DNA of 11,294 nt from Flavobacterium psychrophilum (GTDB lineage Bacteria > Bacteroidota > Bacteroidia > Flavobacteriales > Flavobacteriaceae), in NCBI GenBank assembly GCA_945897545.1, contig CAMDGJ010000080.1, forward strand, positions 1-11,294, read 5' to 3'. Of the stretch, positions 5,186-9,847 are shown in pieces. The position numbers and the translations under genes were made by a program. Within the stretch, counting starts at the first letter, position 1; each line of letters begins with the position of its first letter. The notes below the pieces were generated by a model. That model saw only the letters and a list, made by a program, of their open reading frames with translations, searched no databases and was not told the DNA's origin.

Positions 5186-5710
5186 AAACACTAAAGGGTT
5201 TGGAAGATGGCGGGTATATTGATTTATATTTTGGAGACCAAAGTCATTTTGGTCTCACTCCCAATGTACCTTATGCTTGGCAAACAAAAGAGAATCCAAT
5301 ATTGTTACCCGCTTCTAAAGGCAAATATTAAAATGTAGTTGGATTAATGACACGTAAAAAAAAGCTTTATTTTGAAATACTTGAAACAACCTTTAATTCA
5401 GATAGAATCATCTGTTTTATGAATCGTTTTGAGGAACAAACCGTTAAAAAAAAAGATTGTGATTCTTGACAATTCGCCAATCCATAAATCTAAAAAGTTT
5501 ATGGCTAAAATAGAAGAATGGAAAGAAAAAGATGTTTTGATTTACTTTTTGCCACCGTATTCTCCAGAGTTAAATCTGATAAAAATTCTATGGTGAAGAA
5601 TAAAATATCAATGGTTGGGTTTCGATGCTTATAAAGACTTTGAAAATCTCAAAGAACAATTAAATTCTGTACTGAATAATTTTGGAACAAAATACGACAT
5701 TAAATATTAA
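5140..5710 (+). pseudogene. Degenerate IS630-family transposase remnant
   Basis: Spliced across frames, the reading is a DDE transposase lacking its N-terminal half. It includes YFGDQSHFGL with the first Asp, LTPNVPYAWQ, ILDNSPIH with the second Asp, and YFLPPYSPELNL. Lesions are in-frame stops at 5179-5181, 5329-5331 and 5594-5596, plus a one-base frameshift consistent with an extra A in the nine-A run 5446-5454. The catalytic glutamate expected after PELNL-I is Lys (codon 5582-5584). The natural-looking terminus ends at the stop 5708-5710. The left boundary is uncertain: GQRNEEHFRFKQT can be read in this frame from 5140, overlapping the end of the megasynthase frame. No terminal inverted repeats were recognised. 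The element cannot encode its own transposase. Confidence 0.85.
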
Positions 5711-7226: not shown

Positions 7227-7232
7227 TTTTTA

Positions 7233-7303
7233 AAGTTAGAAGTTGGAAGTTAAAAGTTAGAAGTTAAAAATTCCTAGTATTTCTAACTTCGTACTTCGTA
7301 TTT
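7233..7303. repeat. Two opposing heptamer arrays in the hisS leader
   Basis: Five strict 7-nt units of the form AAGTTRR lie at 7233-7267 on the + strand. Three units (AAATACG, AAGTACG, AAGTTAG) lie on the - strand at 7283-7303. The opposed arrays allow a perfect 9-bp stem, AAGTTAGAA (7254-7262) with TTCTAACTT (7281-7289), with an 18-nt loop. Both would sit in the hisS 5' leader if the promoter assignment is right. Confidence 0.85.
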
Positions 7304-7310
7304 TGCTATG

Positions 7311-7394: not shown

Positions 7395-8636
7395 ATGTTT
7401 AAATTATTTAGAGAAAACGTCCGAATTGCTTTTGGTTCTATCAAAACCCAATTGTTACGAACCATACTTACCGTATTGATTATCGCGATTGGAATCACCG
7501 CCTTGGTCGGGATTTTGACAGTTGTTTCTGCTTTAGAAAACACTTTGTCCTCAGATTTTGCCTCGATGGGTTCGAACACTTTCAACATTAATCAGTACGA
7601 AAACATCTCCCGAAGACGCGGAGGTGACGAAAGAGCAATAATAAACCCTATTTTTTCCTATCCGGAAGCAATGGCTTTCAAAAACAAATATAAATATCCT
7701 CTTACCGAAACTTCGATTTCCTTTACGGCAACTTCCACAGCCGAAATAAAGTTCGAATCAACCGAAACGGATCCTGAAAATATAATTGTTGGTGTCGATG
7801 AGTTTTTTATGGTAAACTCGGGTTTGAAGACAAGTTTAGGCAGAAATTTTACTGGCTTCGATATCCAAAACAATACTTATAATTGCATCGTAGGTTCTGA
7901 TTTTCAAAAAGGATTACTGAAGGATGTGAATCCAATAGATAAAGTAATTTCGATTCGTGGCGCCAAATTTAAAGTGATCGGAGTATTAAAAGAAAAAGGC
8001 TCAACCTTTGGCAACAGCCAAGATTTAAGAGTATTAATCCCTATTCAAGTAGCGCGTTCCTTATTTACTGCTCCCAGAATAAATTATACGATGAGTGTAA
8101 TGGTGGGCAAAAAAGAACTGCTTGACGAAGCCATTGACAATGCCAATAGCACTATGCGAAGAGTCCGTAAATTAAGTCCCGTAAAAGACAATAATTTTGC
8201 GATTGTGCGAAGCGATGATTTAATAAATAGAATCCTTAGCATTACACAATATCTTGGTATTGCGTCATGGGTTATCAGTATTATTACCATCTTGGGATCC
8301 TCAATTGCCTTAATGAATATTATGATTGTTTCGGTTACCGAACGCACTCGAGAAATTGGAGTTCGAAAAGCGCTAGGTGCTAAAAAAAGCACTATTGCAT
8401 TTCAGTTTTTTATAGAAACTTTACTTATTGGTCAAATGGGCGGATTAGTTGGAATAATTTTTGGTATTTCTATAGGTTATGCTATTGCAACGGCAATCGA
8501 TTTTGCCTTTGTAATTCCTTGGGGAGCCATCATTTCGGCTTTTGTTACTAGTTTTGCTGTGGCTATTGTTTCGGGCTTATATCCTGCCATAAAAGCTTCA
8601 AAATTAGATCCAATTGAAGCGTTGCGTTATGAGTAA
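7395..8636 (+). CDS. ABC transporter permease, MacB/FtsX type
   Basis: A 413-residue inner-membrane permease. It has one transmembrane helix near 22-45, a large periplasmic MacB_PCD-like domain (about 46-280), and three C-terminal helices (about 286-312, 338-366, 375-397) forming the FtsX domain. Family signatures are SVTERTREIGVRKALGAK (313-330), the ATPase-coupling segment, and the C-terminal YPAIKASKLDPIEALRYE (396-413). Such permeases pair with a LolD/MacB-like ATPase and often act in mechanotransmission or efflux of lipids, peptides or antibiotics. No ATPase gene or membrane-fusion protein is beside it here, so the substrate is unknown. It is divergent from hisS, and a heptamer array begins 5 nt after its stop. 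No lesions seen. Confidence 0.93.
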   Translation: MFKLFRENVRIAFGSIKTQLLRTILTVLIIAIGITALVGILTVVSALENTLSSDFASMGSNTFNINQYENISRRRGGDERAIINPIFSYPEAMAFKNKYKYPLTETSISFTATSTAEIKFESTETDPENIIVGVDEFFMVNSGLKTSLGRNFTGFDIQNNTYNCIVGSDFQKGLLKDVNPIDKVISIRGAKFKVIGVLKEKGSTFGNSQDLRVLIPIQVARSLFTAPRINYTMSVMVGKKELLDEAIDNANSTMRRVRKLSPVKDNNFAIVRSDDLINRILSITQYLGIASWVISIITILGSSIALMNIMIVSVTERTREIGVRKALGAKKSTIAFQFFIETLLIGQMGGLVGIIFGISIGYAIATAIDFAFVIPWGAIISAFVTSFAVAIVSGLYPAIKASKLDPIEALRYE

Positions 8637-8641
8637 GCACA

Positions 8642-8690
8642 AGGTACGAGGTACGAAGTTAAAAGTACGAGGTGCAAACTATGGAGTTAA
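8642..8690 (+). repeat. Heptamer array, left arm of the four-helix-bundle element
   Basis: Seven 7-nt units on the + strand, the first five close to ARGTWMR (AGGTACG, AGGTACG, AAGTTAA, AAGTACG, AGGTGCA) and the last two degraded. Positions 8642-8676 match the - strand at 8978-8944 with 3 mismatches in 35, forming an inverted repeat around the enclosed gene. It starts 5 nt after the permease stop. Confidence 0.9.
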
Positions 8691-8939
8691 GAAATAGTAT
8701 AATTTTATTTTTAATTTATTAATGAAATCCGCTGTGGATTTTGCTCTTTGTGATGCTCTATAGTTGGCTCCAACAGAACTCGAACATCTTATAAGTTGAT
8801 TTATATAAGCATTAAATTCTCTGGTAGTTGGTAATTTTGAACATAAATGAGAACTATCAATAGTAAATTTCTTAGTTCTTGCTTTCATATCTATTATAAC
8901 TAAATTTTTAAAATTTCTAACTTTAACCTCATAACTCAC
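8679..8939 (-). pseudogene. Truncated four-helix-bundle protein (S23 / 23S rRNA intervening-sequence family)
   Basis: The core TKKFTIDSSHLCSKLP (residues 22-37) followed by NQLIRCSSSVGANYRASQR (47-65) is the signature of the small four-helix-bundle family encoded in 23S rRNA intervening sequences. Family members are usually about 115-125 residues. This one has 86 and diverges straight after DFINKLKI, where family members usually continue with an E-rich helix, so the last one to two helices are missing. The GTG start at 8939 and residues 1-9 (MSYEVKVRN) come from heptamer repeat DNA. The ATG at 8888 (MKARTKK) is a plausible older start. The tail KLYYFLTP runs into the left array. Molecular function is unknown for the family. 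Probably non-functional, but an intact short frame remains. Confidence 0.75.
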
Positions 8940-8978
8940 ATTTCGTACCTCGTACTTTTAACTTCTTACCTCGTACCT
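8916..8978 (-). repeat. Heptamer array, right arm, overlapping prmC end and four-helix-bundle start
   Basis: Nine consecutive 7-nt units on the - strand. The best conserved five are 8944-8978 (AGGTACG, AGGTAAG, AAGTTAA, AAGTACG, AGGTACG), with drift towards 8916. The unit AGGTAAG contains the TAA stop of prmC (8966-8968). The units at 8916-8943 encode the start of the four-helix-bundle frame. This arm is the inverted partner of 8642-8676. Confidence 0.9.
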
Positions 8979-9847
8979 CTTATCATTCTATCATTCCCGT
9001 AAATATCTTTGCGCAATTCAATATTTTTGAAACCCGTCTTTTCGAGTAAATCAATCATTTCTTTTCCTAAATATTCATTAATTTCGAAGAATAGTTGACC
9101 GTTTTGAGATAGGCTTTTCTGGGCTAATTCGGCTATTTTTTTATAAAAAAGCAACGCGTCATTATCATCTACGAAAAGTGCCAAATGCGGTTCATTGTCC
9201 AAAACGTTTTTCTTGATTTCCTGTTTTTCCAACTCTCGAACGTAGGGAGGATTCGAAACGATGATGTCAAATTGTTGTTCTAAATCATCTGTTTCAAGAA
9301 TGTTTTTTTCAACAAAAGTAACTTTCACGGCATTGATTTCTGCATTTTTCTGGGCTGTAGCCAATGCTTTTTCCGAAACATCTATTGCAAAAACTTGAGC
9401 ATTTGGAATATTTTTTGCCAATGAAATCGCAATGCACCCGCTACCTGTTCCTATGTCTAGAATTTTGATTACTCTTCTCACATCGTCCGACTTCGTACCT
9501 CGTACTTCGCACCTTGTACTTTGAATAATCCACTCTACCAATTCTTCGGTTTCTGGTCTTGGAATCAAAACAGCTGGATTTACCTCAAAATCCAATCCAT
9601 AAAAACTAGTTTTACCCAATAGATATTGAATCGGGATTTCTTGCTTCAATTGTTCTAAAATCAAATTCCAACGTTGAATTTCTTCATTAGAAAATGTAAG
9701 GTCATAATTCAAAGCCAAATCAATTCTTTTCAATTGCTGCCTTTCTTCTAAAATTAAATAAAAAAAGCTTTCCGCTTCAACCGAATCGTAAATTGGCAAA
9801 AGTTCTTGAATAAATTGGGCTCTATAATCTCTGATTTCTACCTTCAT
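8966..9847 (-). CDS. prmC: Peptide chain release factor N5-glutamine methyltransferase
   Basis: SAM-dependent enzyme that methylates the glutamine of the GGQ motif in release factors RF1/RF2. It has 293 residues with an N-terminal helical domain. Motifs are PIQYLLGKTSFYGL (72-85), LIPRPETEELV (94-104), the SAM loop DIGTGSGCIAI (131-141), acidic AIDVSEKAL (154-162) and the catalytic NPPY (199-202). Two oddities come from heptamer DNA. Residues about 110-126 (STRCEVRGTKSDDVRRV) are an in-frame insert between the PRPETEELVEWII helix and the SAM loop, and the last residues RGTR plus stop lie in the array at 8916-8978. All catalytic motifs are intact, so activity is likely. It starts 9 nt downstream of the GNAT remnant, probably in one transcript. 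Confidence 0.96.
   Translation of the reverse strand: MKVEIRDYRAQFIQELLPIYDSVEAESFFYLILEERQQLKRIDLALNYDLTFSNEEIQRWNLILEQLKQEIPIQYLLGKTSFYGLDFEVNPAVLIPRPETEELVEWIIQSTRCEVRGTKSDDVRRVIKILDIGTGSGCIAISLAKNIPNAQVFAIDVSEKALATAQKNAEINAVKVTFVEKNILETDDLEQQFDIIVSNPPYVRELEKQEIKKNVLDNEPHLALFVDDNDALLFYKKIAELAQKSLSQNGQLFFEINEYLGKEMIDLLEKTGFKNIELRKDIYGNDRMIRGTR
9487..9521 (-). repeat. Heptamer array inside prmC coding sequence
   Basis: Five 7-nt units on the - strand (AAGTACA, AGGTGCG, AAGTACG, AGGTACG, AAGTCGG), in the coding orientation. It encodes most of the STRCEVRGTKS segment of PrmC (residues 110-120). The flank to about 9471 also looks non-native. The array keeps the prmC frame open. Confidence 0.88.

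Follow-up and report, generated by a model that had tools for sequence, protein, structure and literature searches.

Inverted heptamer arrays flank a four-helix-bundle (4HB) gene of the S23/IVP family between prmC and macB of Flavobacterium psychrophilum, and the same arrangement is found around many other genes of this family. The cassette consists of a potential hairpin with a 4HB gene in its loop; the arms are inverted arrays with units of mostly 7 nt and in a few cases 8 nt. On balance, we take the copy in the window (the whole 11,294 nt stretch of DNA that was analysed) to be a decayed representative of a widespread cassette that resembles the intervening sequences (IVSs) of 23S rRNA and is located at gene junctions rather than in rRNA. 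This seems to be a widespread kind of genetic element that was not described before: in the full-text literature, with most subscription journals and bioRxiv preprints outside its coverage, no paper could be recognized as a description of 4HB genes flanked by heptamer arms. The observation recorded in the initial annotation of this DNA is real and general.

The element between prmC and macB

The element and its surroundings comprise the following features.

7232–7273 (plus strand) and 7277–7304 (minus strand): facing heptamer arrays without a gene, between hisS and macB, upstream of macB
7395–8636, plus strand: macB, a MacB/FtsX-like permease, the convergent neighbour
8642–8683, plus strand: downstream arm (in the sense of the 4HB gene), an inverted copy of the upstream arm (37/42) that ends just before the macB stop (8636)
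8679–8939, minus strand: truncated 4HB ORF (S23/IVP family), 86 aa
8937–8978, minus strand: upstream arm (in the sense of the 4HB gene), an inverted heptamer array with units GAGGTAC/GAAGTTA/AAAGTAC
8966–9847, minus strand: prmC, the co-directional upstream neighbour, with its last codons inside the arm
9488–9508 (9485–9523 by a looser count), minus strand: single heptamer array within prmC, in the part that encodes the variable linker preceding the LDIGTG motif

The initial annotation described 35 nt inverted arrays around an S23/IVS-type gene, and this description holds. Nucleotides 8642–8676 and the reverse complement of 8944–8978 are identical at 32 of 35 positions, and the arms extend to 8642–8683 and 8937–8978, with 37 of 42 positions matching. 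At 88% identity they are the first among the 25 listed of 107 inverted pairs in the window. The best ungapped inverted repeat score in the window is 29.5 (span up to 600 nt), compared with a maximum of 17.0 and a mean of 13.5 in 20 dinucleotide shuffles of the whole window. The upstream arm, which was aligned with those of loci L001, L005, L008 and L009, overlaps the end of prmC such that the last codons of that gene (..RGTR and the stop) are array sequence.

The ORF matches TIGR02436 ('four helix bundle protein') with 41.9 bits (cut-off 24) over positions 3–60 of the 109 in the profile, while its match to PF05635 (23S_rRNA_IVP) has 29.8 bits, under the cut-off of 33.8. Homology begins near MKARTK and stops at ..NKLKI. 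As the full relatives have about 120 residues and the part after ..NKLKI is gone, the gene is C-terminally truncated; this stretch is absent relative to both the intact copies L001, L005 and L008 and the early-stop copy L009. Judged by the predicted structure of P0027, a full-length relative (mean pLDDT 95.2), the truncation removes the C-terminal half of helix 3 and all of helix 4. The window ORF is very likely a pseudogene, with arms that are still well matched. Early stops are also present in L006, L009, L010 and L013.

The repeat also occurs alone nearby, as had been noted initially, in the arrays at 7232–7273, 7277–7304 and 9488–9508. The facing pair upstream of macB reaches an ungapped inverted match of only 10.5. 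The PrmC linker before LDIGTG varies between species (L188–L217 and L001–L013), and by eye several of these linkers read as translated 7 nt repeats, for example KSKVKSQ. Elsewhere in the window, positions 5186–5710 follow a large PKS/aminotransferase ORF, contain many stops and by eye resemble a decayed transposase gene.

Inverted arms across the 4HB family

A first set of 80 loci was retrieved from named genomes with a full-length relative as the query and with the flanks ignored (the best 80 of 360 confirmed); 79 could be scored, one having too little flank. The best ungapped inverted match between a gene's own two flanks averages 16.2. Flanks taken from different loci average 11.0, and the means are 9.1 for matches in direct orientation, 8.3 for shuffled flanks and 7.8 for flanks 1.2 kb away. 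A score of at least 15 is reached by 46/79 own pairs, 951/6162 swapped pairs, 6/79 direct pairs, 0/395 shuffled pairs and 0/76 pairs 1.2 kb away, and 12/79 loci score below 12. These are not 80 independent cases, since one subfamily recurs at a few junctions: lepA/folD (22), prmC/macB (11), hisA/hisF (11), hisH/hisA (10), mraY/murD (6) and others (20), with neighbours other than prmC and macB named by eye. In a scan with a fixed motif, which misses other units, 60 of the 80 loci have an upstream array, 57 a downstream array and 49 both. RNA duplex energy was tried as a flank measure and gave means of −43.9 for own flanks, −37.1 at 1.2 kb and −34.0 for swapped flanks; it did not separate them and was replaced by ungapped inverted matching.

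Three broader sets were scored with a threshold of at least 13. A search with PF05635 in seven genomes returned 64 places, which correspond to 62 genes after two split pairs were merged, and all were included. Own flanks pass in 46/62 of these, swapped flanks in 2.4% (12/490) and far flanks in 0/62, with means of 16.0, 9.1 and 8.5, respectively. Among 61 Bacteroidota genomes drawn, 44 contain the family above the PF05635 cut-off, often in several copies. The best copies of 29 of these genomes (L164 and L171 being cut by contig ends) pass with their own flanks in 17/29 cases and with swapped flanks in 17/812, and the own pair is the best of 29 in 16. From 23 plasmid records with a relative, 16 were taken (12 cyanobacterial, two from Chloroflexota, one from Spirochaetota and one from Bacteroidota). 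In this four-phylum set 14/16 own pairs pass, with a mean of 25.1 against 9.7 for swapped pairs; the swapped rate of 32/240 is high because related copies have units in common. The first scoring had left minus-strand loci unturned, which hardly affects an inverted score, and a rerun with every locus in gene orientation gives 46/62, 16/27 (without L164 and L171) and 15/16.

Other ORFs of the same loci pass in 14/235 cases, eight of them with a 7 nt period. Four of these eight are themselves further 4HB genes (L002, L004, L138 and, by eye, L053); the first three represent a single gene found in two related genomes, L004 and L138 being the same copy. An earlier control with ORFs of at least 100 aa gave 13/195. 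A scan of viral contigs matched a pattern in 88 stretches, none of which was confirmed.

These numbers bear on one alternative, a coincidence of abundant intergenic heptamer arrays with intergenic 4HB genes. Arrays are indeed common at the prmC/macB and hisA/hisF junctions of Flavobacterium. Against this, own flanks beat swapped flanks of the same class, far flanks and the flanks of other genes, and even swaps between occupants of the same site lose at three of five sites (see below), which makes coincidence highly improbable. Genes without heptamer flanks, named at the outset as a point against the element, do occur in part: 16/62, 12/29 and 2/16 genes in the three sets are under the threshold, and by eye some of those in the first two sets still have arrays while others do not.

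The repeat unit and its period

Although the arms were picked for complementarity and not for period, those of the seven-genome set have an identity of 0.67 at lag 7 and 0.66 at lag 14, compared with 0.32 after shuffling, and 37 of 46 have their highest identity at lag 7. The corresponding values in the Bacteroidota set are 0.61 at lag 7 and 0.67 at lag 14. Among arms of at least 18 nt the best period is 7 in 61/62, 37/44, 10/14 and 13/14 cases in the four sets. A few arms have a period of 8, and octamer arrays adjoin 4HB genes in G029 and G060 (L218 and L219).

As a rule a locus has a private unit, which its two arms share. Within one genome units differ between genes (AGTGATC, GTTGATG, AGGCAAT, CAAATAA and GAGTTAC), while the two arms of one gene agree. 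Two 7 nt units were used to compare genomes, with kinship not corrected for: AGTNNNC arrays occur in 24/44 genomes with the family and 2/16 without it (p = 0.007), and the reversed pattern in 24/44 and 3/16 (p = 0.019). An 8 nt pattern tried as a control is no commoner with the family (4/44 against 3/16 genomes, p = 0.37); it has 71 matches in G029 and revealed real octamer arrays in two genomes. G036 has one 4HB gene with AGTNNNC-type arms (L272), and a dozen other stretches examined in this genome have AGTNNNC-type arrays with no family gene listed at them.

Placement at gene junctions

Most 4HB genes lie in sense at gene junctions. According to mechanical ORF calls, the upstream neighbour is co-directional in 79/79 loci with a call in the first set, in 59/62 of the seven-genome set, in 20/24 with a call (of 27) of the Bacteroidota set and in 11/16 plasmid loci; both neighbours are in sense in 64/80, 55/62, 18/27 and 10/16, respectively. 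In the sense direction the upstream arm contains more G than C in 125 loci, less in 11 and equal amounts in eight, with the plasmid copies splitting only 8 to 6.

In four examined cases (L178, L176, L175 and prmC in the window) the array supplies the last codons or the stop of the upstream gene. The upstream CDS of L176 ends in ..LQPGVIRNS, compared with ..LQPGRK and ..LQPGQRKKS in empty relatives, and that of L175 ends in ..KLEF.

Several plasmid 4HB genes belong to operons with the annotation DISARM drmD or other helicases together with methylases or Swt1 (L172, L267, L174, L175, L176 and L184). L187 has its 4HB gene between cas2 and cas1, and L182 between csx2 and cas1. In L174 a long hairpin-like sequence is present as a direct repeat upstream and downstream of the 4HB gene. 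L223 (G061:C14:220000-228000) contains four 4HB genes in about 6 kb, each with different flanks, and similar runs are seen in G033 and G045.

RNA or DNA pairing

A true mRNA intervening sequence would have a stem that is cut in the operon transcript, for example by RNase III, separating the messages, and its RNA pairing would be under selection. The sense orientation with the upstream gene (79/79, 59/62, 20/24 and 11/16) is in agreement with this, as is the strong predicted fold of the window element: the minus strand of 8630–8990 folds with −100.8 kcal/mol (z = −7.46), which none of 100 shuffles equals. According to the accessible part of its description, the Coxiella 23S rRNA IVS has the same layout and is cut by RNase III (PMC4990558). 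On the other hand, G-U compatible arm mismatches in the sense transcript are not in excess (115 against 131 in 144 loci, p = 0.34) and selection for RNA pairing is therefore not supported. As copying between the arms could mask such a signal, this result only weakens the RNA model, which we nevertheless regard as quite unlikely. A scan of the window against Rfam at gathering thresholds gave no match.

Filled alleles, empty alleles and gene-less hairpins

In the filled and empty alleles the arms and the gene are present or absent together. One comparison is offered by Nostoc plasmids, where filled L178 aligns with five empty alleles (L260–L264); one of these is on a different plasmid of the strain that contains L178 and matches 74% of the query at 95.6% identity. 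Within the flanks that all alleles share, L178 has 432 nt in place of the 198 nt that each of the five empty alleles has. The upstream CDS ends in ..LGYQNNS in the filled allele, the last codons and the stop being array sequence, and in ..LGYPDN or ..LGYTDD in the empty alleles. By eye, none of the five empty alleles has such a hairpin at the site, and no target-site duplication is seen in this one allele set. Together with the fractions of family members that pass (46/62, 17/29 and 14/16), the joint presence and absence supports the proposal that the arrays are the ends of the element. Between closely related alleles the arrays vary in length in steps of whole heptamers; in two Planktothrix alleles the differences are 7, 21 and 10 nt.

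The prmC/macB junction was surveyed in Flavobacterium at the 30 loci with the highest PrmC scores among 61 genomes. A 4HB gene is present in 2/30: L196 is of the window type and L197 is of another type, in the opposite direction and with its own arms. Gaps of 7–33 nt without a hairpin are found in 5/30, the 45 nt gap of L217 contains one array, made of the unit found in the window, and by eye L204, L205, L207, L211 and L214 have gene-less, short-loop hairpins with units near 7 nt. At hisA/hisF, where one further locus had no hisA in reach, a 4HB gene is present in 2/29 loci, again of two types and one of them in the query's genome, and many of the remaining loci have gene-less hairpins (for example L233, L253 and L257). 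Two unrelated 4HB genes at one junction have therefore been seen twice.

In L192 (prmC/macB) AGTNNNC-type arms surround about 1.3 kb with, by eye, transposase-like ORFs and no 4HB gene. In L254 (hisA/hisF) a gene-less hairpin is present twice, once on either side of an additional ORF (about 100 aa, by eye NIPSNAP-like); it looks as though the gene had arrived with a copied hairpin.

Such hairpins are common without a gene, so the arms do not currently depend on it. The hairpins might even have come first, with slippage making arrays and hairpins at junctions, the 4HB gene settling in their loops as IVSs do in rRNA helices, and the unit being a property of the site. The gene-less short-loop hairpins at prmC/macB and hisA/hisF fit this order of events, as do the different units of paralogues within a genome, and slippage as a source of 7 nt repeats has been published (accessible text of PMC4679880). 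It is at odds with the five empty alleles of L178 that by eye have no hairpin, with the shortest prmC/macB gaps (7–33 nt, 5/30), which have none either, and with the finding that, at different sites, units are shared more among related 4HB genes than among unrelated genes. We consider hairpins that precede the gene to be rather unlikely.

Under the preferred reading, a decayed cassette, the solo arrays could be scars, as the initial annotation proposed. The gene-less hairpins and the single array of the window's unit (L217) at the same junctions in other species argue for this, as do the two 7 nt patterns that are commoner in genomes with the family. Arrays are also present in the coding linker of PrmC and need not derive from a gene-bearing copy, so the proposal stands in part. 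The further suggestion of an active mobile or repeat-spreading system exceeds the evidence, since copies within one genome are at most 68% identical in protein sequence (128 pairs in seven genomes, none of which has nearly identical copies at different sites); nor does the one allele set show a target duplication.

Correspondence between arms and protein

The unit tracks the protein only weakly, and units change faster than proteins. For genes at different sites, the similarity of the units and that of the proteins are correlated with a Spearman coefficient of 0.087 (2878 pairs among 77 loci from the three broader sets, 0/500 permutations as high); inside one genome the coefficient is 0.175 (4/500 as high). 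The mean unit score is 7.9 in the 50 closest protein pairs and 4.5 in the 1592 most distant. When arms are swapped between species at the same site, own arms are better at lepA/folD (one of 5000 permutations as high), hisH/hisA (two) and hisA/hisF (55), but no better at prmC/macB, the site in the window (1098/5000), and mraY/murD (3795/5000). The 4HB protein appears to be under purifying selection, although few unsaturated pairs are behind the estimate: the median dN/dS is 0.03 (three pairs), 0.09 (18 pairs) and 0.15 (one pair), and two sites have no such pairs.

We suggest that the 4HB oligomer may bind its own arms, either as DNA or as an RNA hairpin, and that protein and unit would as a consequence travel together. 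Slippage and template switching from arm to arm would remodel the arrays and keep the arms matched. Loss or truncation of the gene would leave hairpins and single arrays, such as those in the window.

A bolder proposal is that the 4HB protein generates or preserves the paired arrays and sets their register. Each protein lineage would keep its own unit, with a recognition code between protein and repeat and with the rRNA IVSs as a special case that landed in ribosomal RNA. The 7 nt register across four phyla with unrelated units is consistent with such a code, as are the covariation of unit and protein, the rarity of the 7 nt patterns in genomes without the family and the octamer arrays that adjoin 4HB genes in G029 and G060. 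We nevertheless hold it to be rather doubtful. The PF05635 family gains a second shared and directly testable feature, as each protein stands beside its own paired repeat. The result also joins three questions, namely the role of S23/IVP proteins, the abundance of bacterial heptamer arrays and the arrival of IVSs in rRNA.

Comparison with known systems

REP elements with RAYT transposases also combine a small protein gene, hairpin ends and gene-less hairpins elsewhere. Unlike these, the 4HB protein is not a Y1 (HUH) transposase, since PF05635 is its only Pfam match at E values up to 0.01.

The IVS-like anatomy outside rRNA was correctly recognized initially: complementary ends surround an S23/IVP gene between prmC and macB. 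As far as the accessible text of PMC4990558 describes it, the 23S rRNA IVS of Coxiella shares with the cassette the S23/IVP family, a sense ORF inside complementary ends and decay of this ORF, and has three tandem heptamers (GACAGAT) ahead of the ORF. The cassette differs in its location outside rRNA, in its mostly long arms of 7 nt arrays with a locus-private unit and in having no RNA-pairing signal.

Heptamer arrays as such have been reported before. Those of Xanthomonas (GGGAATC) and Nostoc (GGGGA(T/C)T) are mostly intergenic and variable in length, with 70 and 75 inverted array pairs in two Xanthomonas genomes (accessible part of PMC4692102). They have one unit per genome and are treated as quadruplex repeats, and a search of the paper for 'four-helix' gives no hit. 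TAACTGA arrays occur in Beggiatoaceae, Cyanobacteria and some Bacteroidetes, near start codons and with a patchy distribution. They likewise have 7 nt units and occur in the same phyla, but are direct with nearly no inverted pairs, and neither 'four helix' nor 'S23' appears in the text of the report (PMC4679880). According to the same source, the most frequent long simple repeats in many genomes are heptamer arrays, which it ascribes to polymerase slippage.

No reverse transcriptase was found among the five window ORFs that were scanned against Pfam. The Avd protein of diversity-generating retroelements (PDB entries 4dwl and 8ub7) has a similar fold, with a TM-score of about 0.6–0.7 and a Foldseek E value of only about 0.1. 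The closest solved structures are the S23-family proteins 2rld and 2gsc.
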